DNA of 55,211 nt from Methylobacter sp. (lineage in GTDB: Bacteria; Pseudomonadota; Gammaproteobacteria; Methylococcales; Methylomonadaceae), in NCBI GenBank assembly GCA_024636505.1, contig JAGXGY010000009.1:1-55211 (forward strand), in the 5' to 3' direction. Positions 5,694 through 33,656 of the stretch are shown here, piece by piece. Position 1 is the stretch's first letter, and each line of letters begins with the position of its first letter. Position numbers and translations under genes: made by a program. A model generated the notes under the pieces. That model was not told the origin of the DNA, did no database searches, and saw nothing but the letters and a program-made list of their open reading frames with translations.

Positions 5694-6617
5694 TCAAGAC
5701 TGCATAATAAAGCCATATTGCAACGGCCAATCGCGGTAGTTAAAGACCTGCCCTTGATCGCGAACTGTCGCGCAAGCATCAAGCGCTACTTCGGCAAAAA
5801 CCCATTGCACCGCATTAAGCTTGCCCGCCGCCAAAATGCCGTTATCAGGAAAACCACGATCCACCGGCGTATAAACAGCCGCTGCGCCGATATTGACATC
5901 GACGGCTTCAGACCACGGCGCATTGCCTACTAGAACAGACTGAACGACATAGCACTGGTTTTCCAAGGCTCGCGCCTGACAGCCTATTTTGACGCGATGA
6001 TAACCTGCCAGCGTATCGGTACAACTGGGTACTAAAATCAGATTAGCTCCGGCTTCAACCTGTTTTCTTGCCAGCAGCGGAAACTCGCTGTCATAGCAAA
6101 CATTGATGGCGATTTTTCCGTACTCGCTATCAAAACACTTTAATTGCTCGCCTTTTTGAATCAGCCATTGCTCGTTTTCAAAACGGGTCATCATCAGTTT
6201 ATCCTGATAGTCACAGCAACCATCCGGCATACATAAATAAGCCCGGTTTCGGTAGGCGCCGGAATCGGTCTTTACCGGAAACGTACCCGGCTGGATGATG
6301 CACTGGTATTTTTTAGCCAAGGTTTGAAACAAGTTCAGATAATCATCAAGCAATGCCTGCATGGCTGCCAACTGCTTGTTTAACGATGAATAAACCGGCT
6401 CACCCGCCGAGCCTGTTCCCGACAGGCTTACGGCATACACACCATCCCTGGCGATAAATAACGAGGCCAATTCCATACTGGCATATTCGGGAAACAATAG
6501 AATCTTCGCACCCTGTTCTACGGCTTCAACAACCCAGCGTTCGGCTTTGCTTTGATACTGTTGCCAGTTTTCTAAAAAACTGATGTCATATTGGGCGCTT
6601 GCAATTTTAACGTTCAT
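5694..6617 (-). CDS. Carbon-nitrogen hydrolase (nitrilase superfamily) with an embedded palindromic element
   Basis: Amidase/nitrilase-fold hydrolase of 307 residues. The catalytic triad is visible: Glu44 in FPEYAS, Lys140 in DYQDKLMM and Cys174 in INVCYDSEF. The substrate is not evident; relatives cleave omega-amides or carbamoyl groups. The start overlaps the end of the GNAT gene by 11 bp, and in many bacteria a GNAT domain and this type of hydrolase are fused into one protein, so the two probably work on one pathway. Residues about 54-73 (IARDGVYAVSLSGTGSAGEP) interrupt the usual helix after the Glu motif and are encoded by a 53-bp repeat also present in rapA; see findings. Confidence 0.85.
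   Translation of the reverse strand: MNVKIASAQYDISFLENWQQYQSKAERWVVEAVEQGAKILLFPEYASMELASLFIARDGVYAVSLSGTGSAGEPVYSSLNKQLAAMQALLDDYLNLFQTLAKKYQCIIQPGTFPVKTDSGAYRNRAYLCMPDGCCDYQDKLMMTRFENEQWLIQKGEQLKCFDSEYGKIAINVCYDSEFPLLARKQVEAGANLILVPSCTDTLAGYHRVKIGCQARALENQCYVVQSVLVGNAPWSEAVDVNIGAAAVYTPVDRGFPDNGILAAGKLNAVQWVFAEVALDACATVRDQGQVFNYRDWPLQYGFIMQS
6405..6457 (-). repeat. Intragenic palindromic element, family A, copy 1 (in the nitrilase gene)
   Basis: This segment matches 14994-15046 in rapA at 46 of 53 positions. It contains the hairpin GCCTGT / TCCCG loop / ACAGGC at 6411-6427. The rapA copy has CCTGC / TCCCG / GCAGG, so one base pair changed on both arms. It is translated in frame as part of IARDGVYAVSLSG. 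Confidence 0.85.
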
Positions 6618-13328: not shown

Positions 13329-16247
13329 TCAACTGGTAATTACAAATCTCACCGCGTCCAGCCTTAACTGCGCGGCCTGGATATTTTCATGCGCCAGCAT
13401 GGTCATATCCTTGAGTTGTTCGATTTCTTCGGTTCTGATGCTCGGATTCACTTTTTTTAATCTGACTAGGCGCTTGATTTCATTGCTCAACGATTTCAAC
13501 ATCGTTTGAGTCGCCTGATCGACTAACGCTTGCATATCGGCTTTGGCTTTTTGCTCAGCCGCACCCAATATATTAATAAGCTGCGGTCTTTGACTGTTCA
13601 AAAAAACAACAATCCGGTGCTTATCAAACTTGATACCGGCGTCAACCAAATCACGGTGCTCAATATCCTCACTGACATCTTTTTGGTTTTGATCGATCAA
13701 TACCCGGATCGGGGTATGCGGTAAAAACCGCCCGATTTGTAATTCGGCAGGCGCGCTACATTCGACAATAAACAAACACTCCAGAAAAAACTGCCCAGCC
13801 TTAAGATCGCTATGTTTAATTACACTGATCGCGGCGTTGCCGGTCTCAGAGGACAGCACCATATCCATCGATGCAGTGACCAACGGATGTTCCCACGTCA
13901 TAAACTGCATATCTTCCCGCGCCAGGGCAATCTGCCGGTCAATGGTAATAGTCATGCCGTCCTCGGTTAATCCGGGAAAATGCGAGACACGTAAATGGCC
14001 GCTGGGACGAACAATAAAACAATCCGGCGAATGGAATTCGGTGTCTACGCCGTAACATTCAAAGACATCTTCCATATAAGGCCAAAGCACACCCTCTTTC
14101 TCGTAGTCATTCAACTGCTCGATAAGCTCATCGGCCAATTCCTTGCGACAGGAATTCAACTCCAGCAATTGATCGCGACCATTATGCATTTGCGTTTCAA
14201 GTTCGGCACTGAGCGTTTGGGTCTTGGCGATAAGGCTATCAATATCGGCTGGGTTTTTACTAGCCAAAACAGCCGCCAGCTCATCGTGCAACAAATCCGC
14301 AACCCGTTGGGCCGATGAACTGTTGCAGGCAAATGCATTCAGACCTTCATCATACCAGCGATACAACACCGCATTATCAGTATGCTCCAGATACGGCACA
14401 TGAATCTGGATAATATGTTTCTGGCCGATACGATCCAGACGACCTATACGTTGTTGCAATAAATCGGGATTGGTCGGCAAATCCAGTAGAATTAAATGAT
14501 GCACAAACTGAAAGTTCCGGCCTTCACTGCCGATTTCAGAACAAATCAATAGTCGCGCCGCACTTTCCGGATCGGCAAAATAGGCCGCTGCACGGTCGCG
14601 CTCGATAATGCTCATGCCCTCATGAAACACCGCCGACGCGATACCGGCGCGGTTTTTCAGGGCTTGCTCCAGGTCAATTGCAGTTTGCGCCTGTTTGCAG
14701 ATCACCAAAGCTTTATCACCAATGATCGTGTGTATGCCGCCAACCTGCTGAGAGTTGGTGTGGCGTTGCCCTGTCAACTGTTTAACCTTATCTACCAGCC
14801 ATAAAAAGCGCGGGTCTTGTGGCCAGTCGTCGGTATTGGCCTGTCCGGTCAAGGCATAACCGTAACGCTCCCGCTCGGGAAAGCCTTGTACGGTTTGCCG
14901 GGAATTCCTAAATAAAACACGTCCTGTGCCATGATGATCGAGCAACACATTCACCAGCGCATCGCGCGCCGCCGCGGATTTTTCTGGTTCGTTCGCCGCA
15001 CCTGCTCCCGGCAGGTTTGCGGCATACACATCATCCCTGGCGATAAGGTTTTTCAGTAAACCGTCGACATTGTCATCTTTCAGCAGTGCGGTTAAATGTT
15101 GCTGCGCCTCTTCATTCAGAACTTCCTCCGCCAGCAACAACTTCGCCGCATGAGCCACCGGCTCAAACAAGCGTTCTTCTTCGACAAAAGCCGCAAAACT
15201 GTAAAATCGGTCGGGATCGAGTAACCTTAATCGGGCAAAATGGCTTTCCTTACCTAATTGCTCCGGGGTTGCCGTCAATAAAATAAGACTGGGGGAAATA
15301 GCCCCCAATTGTTCGACAAACAGGTAGTCAGCACTGGGTGCTAGTTCGCTCCATTCCAGATGGTGTGCTTCGTCGACTATCACCATATCCCAACCTGCCT
15401 CAATAGCCTGTTGCTGGCGGCGCGGATAATTGGAAAAAAAGCTTTGGCTGCAGAGAATCAATTGTTCGGTTAAGAACGGATTATCGGCAGCGGCGTCAGC
15501 TTCAGCCGCTTCAGCGAGCATGTCGTCTTCCGCATAGGTAGCGAGACAGCGCGCCTCGTCAAAAATACTAAAGCGCAGATTAAAGCGCCGTAGCATTTCG
15601 ACCAGCCATTGATGCAGCAGCGTTTCCGGCACGATAATCAACACCCGGTTGCTCAAGCCGTTAATCAGCCGATGGTGCAAAATCAAACCGGCTTCGATGG
15701 TTTTACCCAGGCCCACTTCATCGGCCAGCATGATTCGTGGCGCAGAGCGGTTAGCCGATTCATGCGCAATAAACAACTGATGCGGAATAAGCGAGGCACG
15801 ACCGCCCAGCAAGCCTTTAACCGGCGATTGTTGATGCTGTTGCAATCTGAGCCAGGTTTCATAACGCAACAAAAACCAGGCGGAAGGATCGACTTGCCCG
15901 ATAAACAACCGATCCTGAGGCTTGTTAAATTGGATGTGATGATTCAGCTCCACCTCATCCAACTGAACTTCGTGTCCATCTTCGTCCTTGCCCACATAAG
16001 TAATCAAGCCGTCCTGCTCAGTTAAACCGGTGACGGCCACTTTATCTTCGTCAATCGACTCAATAAGGTCGCCTACCGAAAATCGGACGCGCGTTAACGG
16101 GGCGTTATCTTGCGCATAGATACGCTTTTCGTCACAAGCCAGAAAAAGTACAGTGACCCGCTTGTGTGTCACATCAAGAATAAGACCTAAACCAAGCTCT
16201 GACTCAGTATTACTAATCCAGCGCTGGCCGGGGATAAATTGTTCCAT
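13329..16247 (-). CDS. rapA: RapA, RNA polymerase-associated SWI2/SNF2 ATPase, with an embedded palindromic element
   Basis: 972-residue homologue of RapA, which binds core RNA polymerase and promotes its recycling. The N-terminal Tudor-like domains (GQRWISNTESELGLGLI) precede a SNF2 ATPase with Walker A in ADEVGLGKTIEAG, the DEAH box in VIVDEAHHLEW, LLTATPEQ, and the C-terminal helicase lobe with LICSEIGSEGRNFQ and QQRIGRLDRIGQKH. Length matches E. coli RapA (968). Residues about 400-420 (LIARDDVYAANLPGAGAANE) lie in the linker before ARDALVNVLLDHHGTGRVLFRN and are encoded by a repeat shared with the nitrilase gene. The gene is monocistronic, with an ATG start at 16247. Confidence 0.93.
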   Translation of the reverse strand: MEQFIPGQRWISNTESELGLGLILDVTHKRVTVLFLACDEKRIYAQDNAPLTRVRFSVGDLIESIDEDKVAVTGLTEQDGLITYVGKDEDGHEVQLDEVELNHHIQFNKPQDRLFIGQVDPSAWFLLRYETWLRLQQHQQSPVKGLLGGRASLIPHQLFIAHESANRSAPRIMLADEVGLGKTIEAGLILHHRLINGLSNRVLIIVPETLLHQWLVEMLRRFNLRFSIFDEARCLATYAEDDMLAEAAEADAAADNPFLTEQLILCSQSFFSNYPRRQQQAIEAGWDMVIVDEAHHLEWSELAPSADYLFVEQLGAISPSLILLTATPEQLGKESHFARLRLLDPDRFYSFAAFVEEERLFEPVAHAAKLLLAEEVLNEEAQQHLTALLKDDNVDGLLKNLIARDDVYAANLPGAGAANEPEKSAAARDALVNVLLDHHGTGRVLFRNSRQTVQGFPERERYGYALTGQANTDDWPQDPRFLWLVDKVKQLTGQRHTNSQQVGGIHTIIGDKALVICKQAQTAIDLEQALKNRAGIASAVFHEGMSIIERDRAAAYFADPESAARLLICSEIGSEGRNFQFVHHLILLDLPTNPDLLQQRIGRLDRIGQKHIIQIHVPYLEHTDNAVLYRWYDEGLNAFACNSSSAQRVADLLHDELAAVLASKNPADIDSLIAKTQTLSAELETQMHNGRDQLLELNSCRKELADELIEQLNDYEKEGVLWPYMEDVFECYGVDTEFHSPDCFIVRPSGHLRVSHFPGLTEDGMTITIDRQIALAREDMQFMTWEHPLVTASMDMVLSSETGNAAISVIKHSDLKAGQFFLECLFIVECSAPAELQIGRFLPHTPIRVLIDQNQKDVSEDIEHRDLVDAGIKFDKHRIVVFLNSQRPQLINILGAAEQKAKADMQALVDQATQTMLKSLSNEIKRLVRLKKVNPSIRTEEIEQLKDMTMLAHENIQAAQLRLDAVRFVITS
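14994..15046 (-). repeat. Intragenic palindromic element, family A, copy 2 (in rapA)
   Basis: Same element and same orientation relative to the gene as 6405-6457. It contains the hairpin CCTGC / TCCCG / GCAGG at 15001-15015. It is read in the same frame as copy 1, giving ARDDVYAANLPGAG against ARDGVYAVSLSGTG. Confidence 0.85.
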
Positions 16248-16360: not shown

Positions 16361-16721
16361 TTGACATCCTCCCCCACCTAAAGGAAGGGGATTCCTGATT
16401 GCTCAGGAGTGAGTAGGTATCGCTACTGCTCACGGGTTTCTGCTGCTGACGGCCTTGTTGCACCGTTCACTTCACAGACTAGCCCCGTCTATCCGAGGGT
16501 TGTTTTACTTTTGTACGGTTATTCGAGATTTCACACAATTTGCTTGGTTATCGCTGATTATGCTTTTGAAGTCTTTTAAAACTAAGTTGCCATCATGAAG
16601 CGAGCCTAAGCGTCCTCTGCTAGCAATCTTGGTATAATTCTAACACAGGATATATTGTGCATATTATGAAAGATTCGGAATTGAGTCGCTGACATCCTCG
16701 CCCTGAACGGCGGGTGTTACG
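16361..16721 (-). mobile_element. IS200/IS605-type element remnant (no transposase)
   Basis: The left boundary TTGACATCCTCCCCCACC TAAAGGAAGGGG is the typical right end of an IS605/IS1341-type element, inverted here. The other boundary, ACATCCTCGCCCTGAACGGC around 16691, matches the same end in the element at 27505-27540. About 300 bp lie between them with no open tnpA or tnpB frame. The stretch 16420-16500 next to the right end is hairpin-rich and may be the old omega-RNA region. The element is too short to be autonomous. Confidence 0.6.
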
Positions 16722-26957: not shown

Positions 26958-27540
26958 TTGACATCCTCCCCGACCTAAAGGATGGGGATTCCTACTGCTA
27001 GACGCTTATGCCCAAGCGCGAGAATGTTCTTTGCTGCATTCATATCTCTATCATGCATGGTGCCACACTCGGCACAAGTCCATGCTCTTATTCCAAGCCC
27101 TGCTCTACCTTTCGGACTACTGGCGCTTATGCAGCCTCAGCACCAACAGGCTTGATTTGTTTTTGTTGAACTGTTTTCTGGCTTTGCCATGAACGGCAAT
27201 GGTTTCCTGAACCGCCGTCGAGTCGATGATCATGCCGCGCTCTTTGCGGATGCCTTTCAAGTCTTTCATCAACTCAAACGCCGAGGTGCCACAGTTTATG
27301 TAGCCGACTTCTGGAATAAAAACCCAAGAAAACTCAGCAGAATATGCATTAGCGGCGTTCCAGACCTGATTGACATCAAACGCCATACGGTTCAATACAC
27401 TAGCGTGTTTATCGCGGACTCTGACTGAAAGTGTTCTAATTACGGGTTTCATGATTGCCAAGATACGGTCTGTCGATTACGCTGTCAAAAAAATCAAAAG
27501 CACACCTTACATCCCCGCTCTAAACGACGGGGCTTTACGG
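26958..27540 (-). mobile_element. IS200/IS605-type element, internally deleted
   Basis: The right end (TTGACATCCTCCCCGACC TAAAGGATGGGG at 26958) and the left end (ACATCCCCGCTCTAAACG around 27509-27540, hairpin CCCCG/CGGGG) bracket a shortened tnpB. No tnpA is present. It lies between hflK and the SulP gene. The left end matches the element at 16361-16721. Confidence 0.8.
26975..27452 (-). pseudogene. tnpB: TnpB with central deletion and frameshift
   Basis: The N-terminal ~100 residues (ATG 27452, MKPVIRTLSVRVRDKH to AVHGKARKQF) are intact and match IS1341-type TnpB. The C-terminal ~45 residues follow in another frame: GRAGLGIRAWTCAECG then TMHDRDMNAAKNILALGHKR, ending at the TAG at 26975, with the zinc-finger CxxC and the DRD catalytic Asp. 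About 200 or more central residues, including the first RuvC motifs, are missing, so it cannot cut DNA. The first part alone reads as a 111-residue open frame to 27117. Confidence 0.85.
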
Positions 27541-29502: not shown

Positions 29503-32500
29503 TCACCCCCTCTCATCCCAAGCCTTGTCCATTCGCTTTACCGAAACCGGATAGGCGGTTTTAAGCTGCTGGGCAAACTGCGACACTCTGAATTCCTCCA
29601 GCATCCAACGGAACGGGTCTTGCTCCGGAATTACCTGGTCTTTTTTGGCTTTTTTTTCTACGTCTTTCCAAAATCGTGTCGCATAACGACCGACTTCCTG
29701 AACTTTTTGCAAGGTGTTATCGCGTTTATCCAGCCGGTATTGCATGGCTTTTAAATAACGCGGAATGGCTTTAAGCTGCTGATAGGGAGTATTGCGAATG
29801 AAGCCGGCATAAATCATCAAATCCAGTTGCTCGCTAATATCTTTCGCCAGCGGGTCATTCGTATTCAAGCGGTTCAGTTGGGTAAGAATGGCGCTGTACA
29901 GTTCCATGATGTCCAGCGCAATTTTACCCGCTTCATTAGCAGCGCTGATCAAGCTGGCTTTGTTGGTTTGCACGGTTTGCTCAAAAGCCTGCTGAGTGCG
30001 GATGCTTTGGCCTTCGACAAATACGCCGTACAGGGCGACATACAGCAGGTCCTCTTTATAAGAAGGGCTAAAGCCGTAGTCCAGCAGCGGGTGTTTCGGC
30101 AGGCGGTTATAAGTCAATTCTGCCGCCGCAGATTTGGGCATGTTTTTGCTGATGTAAGTGCATTCTTTGCGCAGTTGCAGTTGAAACAGGCGCATTAAGC
30201 CGGCCTGATGCTGGAGCGCCGCTTTTTGATCGGTATCGAAAATGCGCACGCCGACCGCATCGCCTTCGTCGATGATCGCGGGGTAGCCGACAAAGGTCTG
30301 CCCTTTCTGGATAAACTGATACGTTTCCGGCAAATCGTCGAACGCCCAGCCAATACAGCCGGTGTAATTCAACTCGTCGGCGGCAATCTGATCGAAGCTG
30401 TCAACGGCTTTGGCGGTATGTTTAAGCTGCAGTTTTTTCAGGTCGCGGCCGTAATCGAGCAGTTGGCCTTGATCGTCGACCACCCGAAAATTCATCCGCA
30501 AATGATTGGTCAAGTTTTCGGTATTCCAGGCATTTAAAGGAATCGCCTCGCCGGTCAGTTTTCTTAAGCGATTGCCCAGCCATTCCTGCAACGCGCCTTT
30601 AAAATCCGGCTCGATTTCAAGACATTGTTTGACGGTTTCCGGCACCGGCACAAAGTGTTTCCTGATATTCTTGGGCAGGGATTTAATCAGCGCGATACAT
30701 TTTTCTTCCAGCAGCCCCGGCACCAGCCAGTCGAACGCGGTTTGCGAGACTTGGTTTAATTGATGCACCGGAATAATCGCGGTCACACCGTCTTCGTCAT
30801 GCCCCGGCTCGAACCGGTATTGCAGCGGAATGGTCAGCTTGCCCCTTGTTCCCAAGCTCCAGCTTGGGAACGAGTCCGGAAAATCCCATTCGTTAACATA
30901 ATCGTGCTCCTGATCCCGCGTTAAATCTTCCTTGGTTAAAAACAGGATCTTGGGATTGGCGCGTTCCGCCGTCTTGCGCCAAGTGTCCAGCGTCACGCCG
31001 CTGAACACTTCAAGCGGCAATTTGCTGTCGTAAAAGTCATACAGCCACTGCTCATCTTCAACCAAATCAACCCGACGGCCTTTGTGCTGAATCATGCCGA
31101 CTTCTTCGAGCAATTTCTGGTTGGCGATATAAAAGCGCGCATTGCTGTGATAATCATGATCGACCAGCGCCGAGCGGATAAAAATTTCCCGCGCGGCTTT
31201 GGCATCGACATGGTCGTAAGGAATCTTGCGCCCGGATTGCAGCGTCAAGCCGTACAACAAGGTACGTGAAGACACCATGCAACGTGCGCCTTTCTTCGAC
31301 CAATGCGGGTCGTAATAGTTTTGTTTGACCAAATGTTCGGCGCAATGCTCTATCCATTCCGGTTCGATGCGGGCGACGTTGCGCGCATAAACCTTGCTGG
31401 TTTCAACCTGCTCCGCCGCCATGATCCATTTGGGCTTGAGCTTATGCAAACCGGAACCGGGGAAAATGAAAAACTTCAGGCCGCGCGCGCCGAGGTATTC
31501 GTATTGCTCATGGCGAAAACCGATATTGGACAACAGGCCCGGCAACAACGCACGATGGATTTTTTCATAACGGGCTGTCCCTGCCCGTTCCTCTTCGAGC
31601 GCTGTGCGTGCCAATCCGCTCCCGGCGGATTGGTCATAACCAATATCATCGGTATTCAGAGTCATTTTTAAATCGCCTTTAACCACCTGCATGATTTGCG
31701 CGTGGATGTCGAACCATTCGCGCATCCGCATGTAAGACAGGAAATTGTCGCTGCAGTATTTGCGCAGCTTGCTGTTGGACAGGTGTTTTTTCTTGTCCTC
31801 GTAGGTATTCCAGATAGTCACCAGCGTTAAAAAGTCGGACTCGGGATGACGAAACGCCGCGTGTTTTTGGTCGGCCTGCGCCATCTTGTCGGCCGGTTTT
31901 TCCCTCGGGTCTTGCACGCTTAGCGCCGAAACGATAATAGCGACTTCGGTCAAACAATGCTCATGCGCGGCGGCAATCAGCATCCTGGCAAGCTTGGGAT
32001 CGGTCGGGAATTTGGCTAATTGTTTGCCCACATCGGTCAGTTTGCCGGATTTATCCAGCGCATTGACTTCATGCAGCACGGTTTTGCCGTCGCGAATCAT
32101 CTTGTCTTCGGGCGGCTCAATGAACGGAAAATCTTCAATATCGCCGAGTTTTAATGACATCATCTGCAAAATAACCGCAGACAAATTGGTACGCATGATT
32201 TCCGGCTCGGTGAACTCCGGTCTGGCTAAATAATCGTCATGCGAATACAGCCGAATGCAAATACCTTCGGCGACACGACCGCAGCGCCCTGCCCTTTGAT
32301 TGGCGGAAGATTGCGAAATGCGCTCAATCGGCAAACGCTGGATTTTGCTGCGATGGCTGTAGCGGCTGATCCGCGCATGGCCGGTGTCGATGACGCAACG
32401 GATGCCCGGCACCGTCAATGACGTTTCGGCGACGTTGGTCGCCAGCACGATGCGCAGCTTGCCGCCTTTGGGTTTGAACACCCGCTCCTGCTCGCTGACG

Positions 32501-33534
32501 CTGAGTTTGGAATACAGCGGCAGAATTTCATATTGGGTAGGATGATGCTTTTTCAGCGAATCGGCGGTTTCCCTGATTTCCCGCTCGCCGCTAAGGAAAA
32601 TCAGGATGTCGCCGCGCAAATCCCGGTACAGTTCGTCTACCGCATCCAGGATTGCATTTTGCAGGTCATCCGTAGTTTCATCAAGAGCTGTCCCTGCCTT
32701 TGCCCCTTCGGGCGCGATGCGTGCCAATCCGCTCCCGGCGGATTGGTCGTCCTCTTCTCTCTGCTCAATTGGTCGATAGCGCATTTCAACCGGATAAGTC
32801 CGCCCTGAAACTTCGATAATCGGCGCATGGTTAAAGTGCGTCGAAAAGCGCTGCGTATCGATGGTGGCCGAAGTGATGATTAACTTTAAATCGGGGCGTT
32901 TTGGCAGCAGCCACTTCATGTAGCCGATCAGGAAATCGATGTTCAAACTGCGCTCATGCGCCTCATCGATAATGATGGTGTCGTACTGATTCAGGTAAGG
33001 ATCGTTTTGAGATTCGGCCAGCAAAATGCCGTCGGTCATCAATTTTATTAACGATTCAGCATGGGTTTTGTCGTTAAAGCGGATTTTGTAACCTACTGAT
33101 TTACCCATTGGCTCGCCCAATTCTTCGGCAATACGGTCGGCGACGGTGCGCGCTGCAATTCGCCGGGGTTGGGTATGGCCGATAAAGCCCGCCGCGCCGC
33201 GCCCTATCGACAAACAAATTTTAGGCAACTGCGTGGTTTTGCCGGAGCCGGTTTCGCCGCACAGTATCACCACCTGATGGTCTTGTATCAGCTTGGCAAT
33301 GTCGTCTTTTTTGCCGGTGACCGGCAAATCGGGGAAGTTCAGCACAGGGAAACTGGCCAGCCGCTTGTTCCTGGCGGAGACCGATCTTGCAATTTTACTG
33401 GCCAGAACAGTTAATTCTTCAACTGATTTTTTGCTGCGACAGCGGTCTAACTGCCGTTTTAATAAGTGCCTGTCCTGGTTAAGACAATGCGCTAACTGAT
33501 GAGTGAGTTGCTTGATAAGATCGGAGTTGGACAT
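29503..33534 (-). CDS. hrpA: HrpA, ATP-dependent RNA helicase, with three embedded palindromic elements
   Basis: 1343-residue DEAH-box RNA helicase from ATG 33534 (in-frame TTG at 33537 rejected). Walker A GETGSGKTTQLPK, DEAH in IIDEAHERSLN, SATIDTQRF, TNVAETSLTVPGI and QRAGRCGRV are intact, followed by the HA2/OB domains and the long C-terminal DUF3418 region. Family members act on stalled ribosomes or mRNA processing. Three stretches look inserted compared with E. coli HrpA: residues about 263-283 and 634-654 (both containing DQSAGSGLAR) and about 888-896 (FPSWSLGT). All are encoded by palindromic repeats in frame. The helicase core motifs are untouched. Confidence 0.95.
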   Translation of the reverse strand: MSNSDLIKQLTHQLAHCLNQDRHLLKRQLDRCRSKKSVEELTVLASKIARSVSARNKRLASFPVLNFPDLPVTGKKDDIAKLIQDHQVVILCGETGSGKTTQLPKICLSIGRGAAGFIGHTQPRRIAARTVADRIAEELGEPMGKSVGYKIRFNDKTHAESLIKLMTDGILLAESQNDPYLNQYDTIIIDEAHERSLNIDFLIGYMKWLLPKRPDLKLIITSATIDTQRFSTHFNHAPIIEVSGRTYPVEMRYRPIEQREEDDQSAGSGLARIAPEGAKAGTALDETTDDLQNAILDAVDELYRDLRGDILIFLSGEREIRETADSLKKHHPTQYEILPLYSKLSVSEQERVFKPKGGKLRIVLATNVAETSLTVPGIRCVIDTGHARISRYSHRSKIQRLPIERISQSSANQRAGRCGRVAEGICIRLYSHDDYLARPEFTEPEIMRTNLSAVILQMMSLKLGDIEDFPFIEPPEDKMIRDGKTVLHEVNALDKSGKLTDVGKQLAKFPTDPKLARMLIAAAHEHCLTEVAIIVSALSVQDPREKPADKMAQADQKHAAFRHPESDFLTLVTIWNTYEDKKKHLSNSKLRKYCSDNFLSYMRMREWFDIHAQIMQVVKGDLKMTLNTDDIGYDQSAGSGLARTALEEERAGTARYEKIHRALLPGLLSNIGFRHEQYEYLGARGLKFFIFPGSGLHKLKPKWIMAAEQVETSKVYARNVARIEPEWIEHCAEHLVKQNYYDPHWSKKGARCMVSSRTLLYGLTLQSGRKIPYDHVDAKAAREIFIRSALVDHDYHSNARFYIANQKLLEEVGMIQHKGRRVDLVEDEQWLYDFYDSKLPLEVFSGVTLDTWRKTAERANPKILFLTKEDLTRDQEHDYVNEWDFPDSFPSWSLGTRGKLTIPLQYRFEPGHDEDGVTAIIPVHQLNQVSQTAFDWLVPGLLEEKCIALIKSLPKNIRKHFVPVPETVKQCLEIEPDFKGALQEWLGNRLRKLTGEAIPLNAWNTENLTNHLRMNFRVVDDQGQLLDYGRDLKKLQLKHTAKAVDSFDQIAADELNYTGCIGWAFDDLPETYQFIQKGQTFVGYPAIIDEGDAVGVRIFDTDQKAALQHQAGLMRLFQLQLRKECTYISKNMPKSAAAELTYNRLPKHPLLDYGFSPSYKEDLLYVALYGVFVEGQSIRTQQAFEQTVQTNKASLISAANEAGKIALDIMELYSAILTQLNRLNTNDPLAKDISEQLDLMIYAGFIRNTPYQQLKAIPRYLKAMQYRLDKRDNTLQKVQEVGRYATRFWKDVEKKAKKDQVIPEQDPFRWMLEEFRVSQFAQQLKTAYPVSVKRMDKAWDERG
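30848..30871 (-). repeat. Intragenic palindrome, family C (in hrpA)
   Basis: Perfect arms GTTCCCAAGC and GCTTGGGAAC with loop TCCA. The intergenic copy at 13190-13213 has C/G where this one has A/T in both arms. It is translated as part of DSFPSWSLGTRGK, between DFPD and the conserved LTIPLQYRFEPG. Confidence 0.85.
31574..31635 (-). repeat. Intragenic palindromic element, family B, copy 1 (in hrpA)
   Basis: It matches 32687-32748 at 55 of 62 positions. It contains the perfect hairpin CCAATCCGC / TCCCG / GCGGATTGG at 31611-31633 and a small one CTC/TTC/GAG. It encodes DQSAGSGLARTALEEERAGTA in frame. Confidence 0.85.
32687..32748 (-). repeat. Intragenic palindromic element, family B, copy 2 (in hrpA)
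   Basis: Second copy, exactly 1113 bp (371 codons) from the first and in the same frame. The main hairpin is identical (32724-32746); the small one is CCC/TTC/GGG, a compensatory change. It encodes DQSAGSGLARIAPEGAKAGTA. Confidence 0.85.
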
Positions 33535-33656
33535 CAAAAACAGCCGGATAAAATAAAAATATTATACGTGAATTTATTTACTTTTGATTTTATCCATAGA
33601 CTGTCGGCTAATTGTTTATTAAACTTGACATTATTTATCTACTGCGAAGGTATGTG

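Follow-up and report, generated by a model that had tools for sequence, protein, structure and literature searches.

A candidate mobile element of three hairpins, inserted in frame at two sites of hrpA in Methylobacter

Elements of the IS200/IS605 type, and those mobilised by REP-associated tyrosine transposases (RAYTs; REP, repetitive extragenic palindrome), have subterminal hairpins and insert 3' of a short fixed target without duplicating it. Rickettsia palindromic elements (RPEs) are described in two papers (PMC10969869, PMC2229807) as short palindromic elements that occupy intergenic positions but also lie in frame within conserved genes unrelated to one another. The second (PMC2229807) gives these Rickettsia elements 105-146 bp and 12-bp terminal inverted repeats, and reports that a guanylate kinase carrying an RPE is still active with a changed substrate affinity. 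REPs tagged GTAG or CGTC are, according to Di Nocera et al. (2013, PMC3733652), small hairpins (8-9 bp stems and 4-5 nt loops for the CGTC type), some of which lie inside genes of the uvr and rec groups and of RNA helicases. Here we analyse a stretch of 55,211 nucleotides from Methylobacter sp. (contig JAGXGY010000009.1, positions 1 to 55,211; hereafter the window), whose hrpA gene carries two in-frame copies of a palindromic element. We favour, with moderate confidence, the reading that this is a non-autonomous mobile element with three hairpins in a fixed order, inserted after an NTGA-like target and moved in trans by an enzyme of the HUH type.

The two copies form a direct repeat (31563-31635 and 32676-32748) with a spacing of 1113 bp (371 codons) and 86% identity over 73 nt. 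An earlier reading made from the letters alone (the sequence-only reading) had placed the repeat correctly, with 89% identity over its 62 nt, but the inserted unit measures 69 nt rather than 62. Both copies encode the shared peptide it described, reading DQSAGSGLARIAPEGAKAGTA and DQSAGSGLARTALEEERAGTA. Its main hairpin, here H3 (CCAATCCGC-TCCCG-GCGGATTGG on the forward strand), is perfect in both copies, and its small hairpin, CTC/GAG against CCC/GGG, was recovered as H2 (Table 1). A third hairpin, H1, comes in addition to these two; all of its stem pairs at site 2, whereas one pair is broken in the site 1 copy, whose lone fold departs from the family structure. A 28-nt core (up to 3 mismatches) is matched twice in the window and in none of 100 shuffles.

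Comparison with other hrpA genes shows that the copies are insertions. From 47 loci fetched, 45 were aligned together with the window (46 rows; L046 and L058 were omitted for split matches), the closest named ones being labelled Methylobacter with identities up to 91%. Site 1 is filled in 9 of the 44 rows reaching it (8 of 43 when residues are required on either side, since L057, the ninth, runs out where its contig ends), and site 2 in 6 of 42 rows. The unfilled rows are empty or, at site 2, hold an unrelated longer sequence (8 rows). Empty and filled alleles at one or the other site read, for example, GAAGCCGATGAAACT (L035) against GAGGCCGATGA-69 nt-GACT (L015), and GGGGTATGAAAAAATCC (L012) against GGTTATGA-69 nt-AAAAATCC (window). 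As the sequence-only reading had stated, E. coli HrpA (9ggr) shows a gap at both places, and that reading's view of the repeat as an in-frame palindromic insertion agrees with the empty rows at both sites. Homologues with the peptide but without the palindrome were absent: the peptide motifs occur in 12 of 46 rows, all with the palindrome, and in L030 and L057 the palindrome is present with a diverged peptide that the motifs miss. In L030 a different in-frame repeat (EIPPSPPFSKGG...PPFEKGGLGGI) occupies the place of the element at site 2, and the site 2 linker looks like an insertion hot spot.

Table 1. Positions in the window of hrpA and of the parts of its two element copies (R1, covariance model of the element, see text).
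Feature	Position	Strand	Basis
hrpA, 1344 aa, host of both copies	29503..33537	minus	NCBIfam TIGR01967, 1622.8 bits; list of open reading frames
Element copy, site 2, 69-nt inserted unit (CCAATC...CCCGTTATGA)	31565..31633	minus	R1, 98.3 bits over 31565-31637; empty alleles
Left target ATGA, site 2	31634..31637	minus	Empty alleles, reading e.g. GGGTTATGAAAAAATC
H3, 9-bp stem, loop CGGGA, site 2	31611..31633	minus	Repeat comparison, covariation, lone fold
H2, CTC-GAA-GAG, site 2	31591..31599	minus	Covariance model, fold
H1, AACGGGC-AGGGACA-GCCCGTT, site 2	31569..31589	minus	Covariation, lone fold
Terminal ATGA, probably element-borne, site 2	31565..31568	minus	Right-end statistics
Element copy, site 1, 69-nt inserted unit (CCAATC...CTCTTGATGA)	32678..32746	minus	R1, 89.2 bits over 32678-32750; empty alleles
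H3, site 1	32724..32746	minus	Repeat comparison, lone fold
H2, CCC-GAA-GGG, site 1	32704..32712	minus	Model alignment
H1, degenerate, CAAAGGC-AGGGACA-GCTCTTG, site 1	32682..32702	minus	One non-standard pair in stem

Read on the coding strand, the unit runs from C(A/C)AAT... through H3, a spacer, H2 and H1 to a terminal NTGA. H3 has 9 bp and a loop CGGGA or CTGGA, H2 is CCC-GAA-GGG, and H1 has approximately 7 bp and a loop AGGGACA or AGGAAA. Two forms were distinguished, form A with a unit of 69 nt and form B with one of 63 or 64 nt; terminal inverted repeats were not seen on inspection of the copies. Further copies were sought with a covariance model, R1, built from 14 copies with 19 pairs and with ATGA at both ends. 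In its alignment 96.2% of the cells are paired and 11 of 19 pairs have changed on both sides. The corresponding values are 95.7% and 13 of 19 for alignment A4 (92 matches, 79 distinct rows), and 97.9% and 18 of 19 for alignment A6 (30 matches, 28 distinct rows, taking in 7 matches from the same-order genome G297), both being aligned to R1 and hence biased towards the model structure. Judged from these alignments all three hairpins covary, and A6 gives the best evidence that it is the hairpins, and not the sequence, that are conserved. The loops CGGGA/CTGGA, GAA and AGGGA/AGGAA, read by eye, recur while the stems covary, so that the exchangeable stems suggested earlier do occur within this family.

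The element is widespread. R1, whose E-values are rough, has 18 matches within the own genome at E<=0.01, rising to 21 at E<=1, and 519 at E<=0.01 in the genus, where all 23 genomes, the own one included, carry it; together with the shuffles this upholds the predicted enrichment beyond chance. Matches were present in 66 of 151 genomes and 20 of 29 genera of a family sample (E<=1e-4), and diverged matches in 40 of 274 genomes of a class sample (E<=1e-6), 37 of these outside the order. Loci from other orders keep the architecture with different stems (e.g. L365, TCGACAATTTTGTCGGGAACAAAATTGGACGCG...CGCCCGAAGGGCG...GCCAGGGATGGC). Cross-matches to tRNA genes, which are of similar length, were considered as a source of the class-wide matches and rejected, as no ARAGORN gene overlaps the match in the 19 loci scanned. 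Blastn searches at E 1e-5 gave no match against plasmids (a form B and an other-order copy), phages (the site 2 copy) or E. coli (an other-order copy). Rfam returned only a tRNA for the window at the gathering cut-off, no match for 6 loci at E<=0.5, and only tRNAs and weak matches for 10 other-order loci, where RtT (L363) and MicX (L371) overlap the copy, far under the cut-offs.

For a closer analysis we used 153 copies, mostly the best-scoring among the matches listed, so that form A is over-represented. They fall into 58 flank clusters, the largest of which merges tandem arrays from at least 2 places; one copy fetched twice (L049 = L099) counts twice in the cluster, length and kinship figures. 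A copy was called intragenic on the basis of an open frame with codon score and of Pfam/NCBIfam. The 21 sites accepted lie in hrpA (2), uvrC (2), yhdP (2), rsmA, lptD, dsbD, hrcA, comF/gntX, tilS, GDPD, lnt, rnfC, an outer-membrane efflux protein, a SPOR protein, a histidine kinase (near its end), an ABC transporter, a GTPase and L094, the last being the only one among 19 non-hrpA host proteins lacking a Pfam family. The count inside and outside genes called for by the sequence-only reading comes to 60 intragenic copies, in few frames, and 93 not placed in genes. The unit length is divisible by three in 60 of 60 intragenic copies against 53 of 93 others. Not counted as intragenic were L149 (open frame, 64-nt unit, no Pfam match), L183 (open on the minus strand but in another frame, with weak support) and copies just upstream of the start of an open reading frame (ORF), e.g. 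L067, L069, L130, L143, L169 and L173. At L067 and L089 the copy is apparently inserted at the start codon ATGA of a gene, which leaves the element with an ATGA at either end.

Few reading frames are used. Form A is read as DQSAGSGLAR..APEG.RAG at 8 sites, in another plus frame at 2 and on the minus strand at 3, and form B as LPEG.RAG in a plus frame at 6 and on the minus strand at 2. All five minus-strand sites start with the codon TCA, the rarest minus-strand placement. The plus-frame difference (8,2 vs 0,6) gives p 0.007 in a Fisher test and the minus-frame result (5/5 in the rarest frame) p 1.6e-4, with target counts taken from 18 window ORFs and a form B stop in one minus frame ignored.

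Clean empty alleles were obtained at 11 sites (hrpA 1 and 2, uvrC 1 and 2, dsbD, rnfC, GTPase, rsmA, L094, yhdP 1 and GDPD), and these alleles are shorter by 69 or 63 nt. The two hrpA sites were read by eye, as was the joint at yhdP 1, where the aligner places the gap elsewhere. Relatives missing exactly the unit length number 5 of 5 at uvrC 1 and at uvrC 2, 4 of 5 at dsbD, 4 of 6 at rnfC, 4 of 4 at the GTPase, 2 of 3 at rsmA, 2 of 4 at L094, 2 of 2 at yhdP 1 and 3 of 3 at GDPD. At L108 and L175 most relatives are without 63 and 69 nt, respectively. A relic at the dsbD site (L213) misses 36 nt of the unit and a shortened copy at the L094 site (L221) misses 27 nt, both divisible by three.

The ends of the element are unequal. 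On the right, NTGA is found in 56 of 58 clusters, followed by A in 44 and then by A or T in 55; on the left, NTGA is found in 32 of 58 and NNNA in 57. In yhdP (L125/L137, by eye) the left ends and the empty alleles are without TGA and the right end has it. We conclude from these ends that insertion takes place behind NTGA-like targets and that the element supplies its own TGA, which makes the flanking repeat something other than an ordinary target duplication. The ends fit insertion 3' of a fixed short target without duplication, with some room left for a short variable one. Copies in tandem, head to tail, have a single NTGA in common and a period of 63-64 nt, as expected from insertion behind the TGA of another copy, or from slippage.

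Several copies lie in a wider context of their own. In several genomes a 110-codon ORF has form B copies, several of them tandem, directly in front of it and in its frame (L069, L097, L098, L103, L104, L114 and others). In one genome, G048, ten copies (L271-L280) are each embedded in one larger, slightly varying repeat, CTGGATCTCGG|element|ATCCCTGCCGAGATGACGG, where repeat and element apparently spread as a composite. Others (L154, L163-L167, L171, L172, L180 and L182) are nested in another palindromic repeat, CCTTCTCCCTCAGGG|element|TTAGGTTGGGATG, or lie within GGGCGAATGAATTCGCCC (L123, L124, L128, L143, L156 and L159, and one inside lnt, L160).

A mechanism consistent with these data can be proposed. 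The sequences support insertion as one unit directly 3' of an NNNA target, in most cases NTGA with A(A/T) behind it; the terminal TGA that the element brings makes the ends look like a short direct repeat, although no duplication of the target is required. It may move as hairpin-folded single-stranded DNA, cut 3' of NTGA by an HUH enzyme (Y1, IS200/IS605- or RAYT-like) acting in trans, with the left target pairing with the CA that follows H3. The copies recognised inside genes are in frame, with a length divisible by three and in few reading frames, and would be tolerated because the peptide is short and placed in linkers. The match between terminal TGA and target could allow scarless removal, by slippage or by the transposase, leading to the patchy presence in hrpA. 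The HUH mobiliser is suggested by the insertion rule, by the hairpins and by the predicted pairing of the left TG: folded as lone single-stranded DNA, the site 2 copy and L138 pair it with the CA after H3 and leave the right TGA free. Y1_Tnp matches are present in 23 of 23 genomes of the genus, and the number of elements per genome correlates weakly with that of Y1 matches (Spearman 0.47, p 0.025, 23 genomes), which genome size could explain. A RAYT-like gene of the own genome (L062) is flanked by GTGGGAGCGACGCCTACGTCGCGACTAG repeats, a separate repeat family, and was rejected as partner because its flanks hold this different repeat.

Several observations weigh against this reading. None of the 75 Y1_Tnp loci fetched (35 + 40, three entries repeating a place, hence 72 different places; 141 Y1 matches in all) has an R1 match at E<=0.01, the best being not below E 0.024, and no autonomous relative of the element was seen. 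Local GC skew, a weak test, gave no strand bias relative to replication (mean -0.0017 over 58 clusters). The site 1 copy lacks the left-TG pairing, which thus appears in 2 of 3 copies folded on that strand, and targets other than TGA are unable to form it. The ATGA at either end was built into R1 from the outset. Choosing intragenic copies by open frame selects for lengths that are multiples of three; the equal length differences of the empty alleles are independent of that choice. Some relatives fit badly (L217 with 72 nt missing, L219 with 66 nt, L212/L214 with other DNA), and the joint is unreadable at L108, L175, L083 and L157. Matching ends of at least 6 occur in 6 of 58 cases (one a doubtful copy) against approximately 1.7 from re-pairing, as a variable target duplication would give. 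Finally, copies that share a site are mostly each other's nearest kin (35 of 38, including ties and an identical pair that was fetched twice), so new insertion is rare.

The same kinship, the nearest neighbour lying in another genome, is what one would expect if the hrpA copies at each site go back to one or two old insertions that selection on a DNA or RNA structure (such as a translation-pausing or mRNA-stability hairpin) has preserved and that many lineages have precisely lost, mobility now being incidental. This is possible, if somewhat doubtful. In its favour, third codon positions of the filled rows are 93.8% (site 1) and 95.7% (site 2) identical in the element against 60.0% and 70.2% elsewhere in hrpA. 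The element has the greater identity in 28 of 28 and 15 of 15 pairs, the flanking codons show no such rise, and its value is reached by 0 of 228 and 0 of 229 segments of hrpA. Paired changes that alter amino acids (L051, CTC/GAG to CCC/GGG; L030, in H3) point the same way. On the HrpA tree (40 rows, insert regions removed), however, the minimum number of changes is 7 for 8 filled rows at site 1 and 5 for 6 at site 2, and an element worth keeping would not be lost so often. Moreover, L030 and L031 (Methylovulum) have mutually the closest hrpA among the eight filled rows (11.9% amino acid difference) but the most different elements (12 places), whereas L012 and L025 differ at 1 place with an hrpA difference of 11.2%. 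Element and host distances are positively but not significantly related (Mantel p 0.061 and 0.10). The third-position conservation may reflect either a selected nucleic-acid structure or interspecies movement into the same site with little flank.

An ordinary miniature inverted-repeat transposable element (MITE), for which a DDE transposase would duplicate a short target (TGA or NTGA) on insertion, is unlikely. The identical ends at several sites (L181, ACGGCATGA; L119, AGCCTGA; hrpA 2, GTTATGA) would suit it, but the inverted repeats expected of it were not seen, the right TGA is intact far more often than the left, the yhdP left ends and empty alleles are without TGA, and left flank and right end match over about the same length in the same copy as in re-paired copies. 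Simple target duplication is disfavoured by these end statistics and by the re-pairing. That the peptide is a functional protein module (xPEGxRAG), with the hairpins a by-product of its codons, seems highly improbable: the PEG/RAG frame is used at 14 of 21 intragenic sites, yet the five opposite-strand sites and the two form A sites in the other plus frame encode unrelated peptides, most copies are not placed in genes, and stem covariation changes residues. Chance similarity or an internal duplication of hrpA, which two copies in one gene might recall, is practically negligible given the 58 flank clusters, the empty alleles and the absence of matches in shuffled sequence.

The non-autonomous mobile element can be taken a step further, though we regard the extension as rather unlikely in its full form. 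The family might be a minimal homing-type element, with units of approximately 65 nt and three hairpins across the Gammaproteobacteria that move between species into the same housekeeping codons, insert after NTGA with a matching TGA for scarless exit, and persist in frame with DNA or RNA structure, not peptide, conserved.

Rickettsia, the best-known source of in-frame palindromic inserts, is difficult to manipulate. The present family is large, belongs to a free-living group that can partly be cultivated and has clear empty sites in many housekeeping genes, which makes the insertion rule, precise loss, the cost to the protein and the mobilising enzyme all testable. That the third codon positions of a 69-nt insert differ six to seven times less often than in the gene around it is also a striking example either of codon drift overridden by nucleic-acid structure or of one site being reached by transfer again and again. 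The element also illustrates how short protein inserts can originate from mobile DNA.

Within the window, the sequence-only reading had suggested a superfamily with repeats in the nitrilase and rapA genes (6405-6457 and 14994-15046), which was not established; its interpretation is partly supported overall. The hairpin loop TCCCG (CGGGA on the other strand) is common to both, but by eye the nitrilase/rapA family has one long hairpin, no H1/H2 layout and ends TTATCGCC/GGCGATAA, and a 17-nt piece of it matches R1 at no better than E 0.16. That family is matched 22 times at E 1.1e-6 or better across the own genome, in some cases in tandem, and occurs in the window also at 14713-14765, with the pattern TTATCGCCAGGGATGATGTGTATGCCGC..CCTGCCGGGAGCAGG..GGCGATAA. 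A 36-nt repeat, TTGACATCCTCCCC..CCTAAAGG..GGGGATTCCT, at 16361-16396 and 26958-26993 resembles the ends of IS200/IS605-type elements.

Among described systems, the three-hairpin element shares with IS200/IS605- and RAYT-mobilised elements its hairpins, insertion 3' of a short target and the lack of an ordinary duplication; it differs in that no tnpA or RAYT gene shares its ends among the loci examined, and the weak GC-skew test showed no strand bias. The terminal inverted repeats and target duplication that together mark a DDE-type MITE were not found. Like the CGTC and GTAG REPs it has small hairpins and intragenic copies, but it is not marked by a REP tag (GTAG, CGTC, TGTC or CCTC): H3 is mostly preceded by TGAC and, by eye, mostly followed by GCA, unlike the CGTC...CCA or GTAG of the REPs, and belongs to a fixed three-hairpin unit ending in NTGA. 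The top-ranked open-access literature matches held no description of this three-hairpin family, its insertion rule or its range. With RPEs it shares its in-frame position in unrelated conserved genes (21 sites, all 60 copies divisible by three), whereas its 63-69 nt, three separate hairpins, absence of visible terminal inverted repeats and occurrence in Gammaproteobacteria set it apart. By this comparison its mode resembles that of the Rickettsia elements, and it is apparently another, undescribed family of a known kind.

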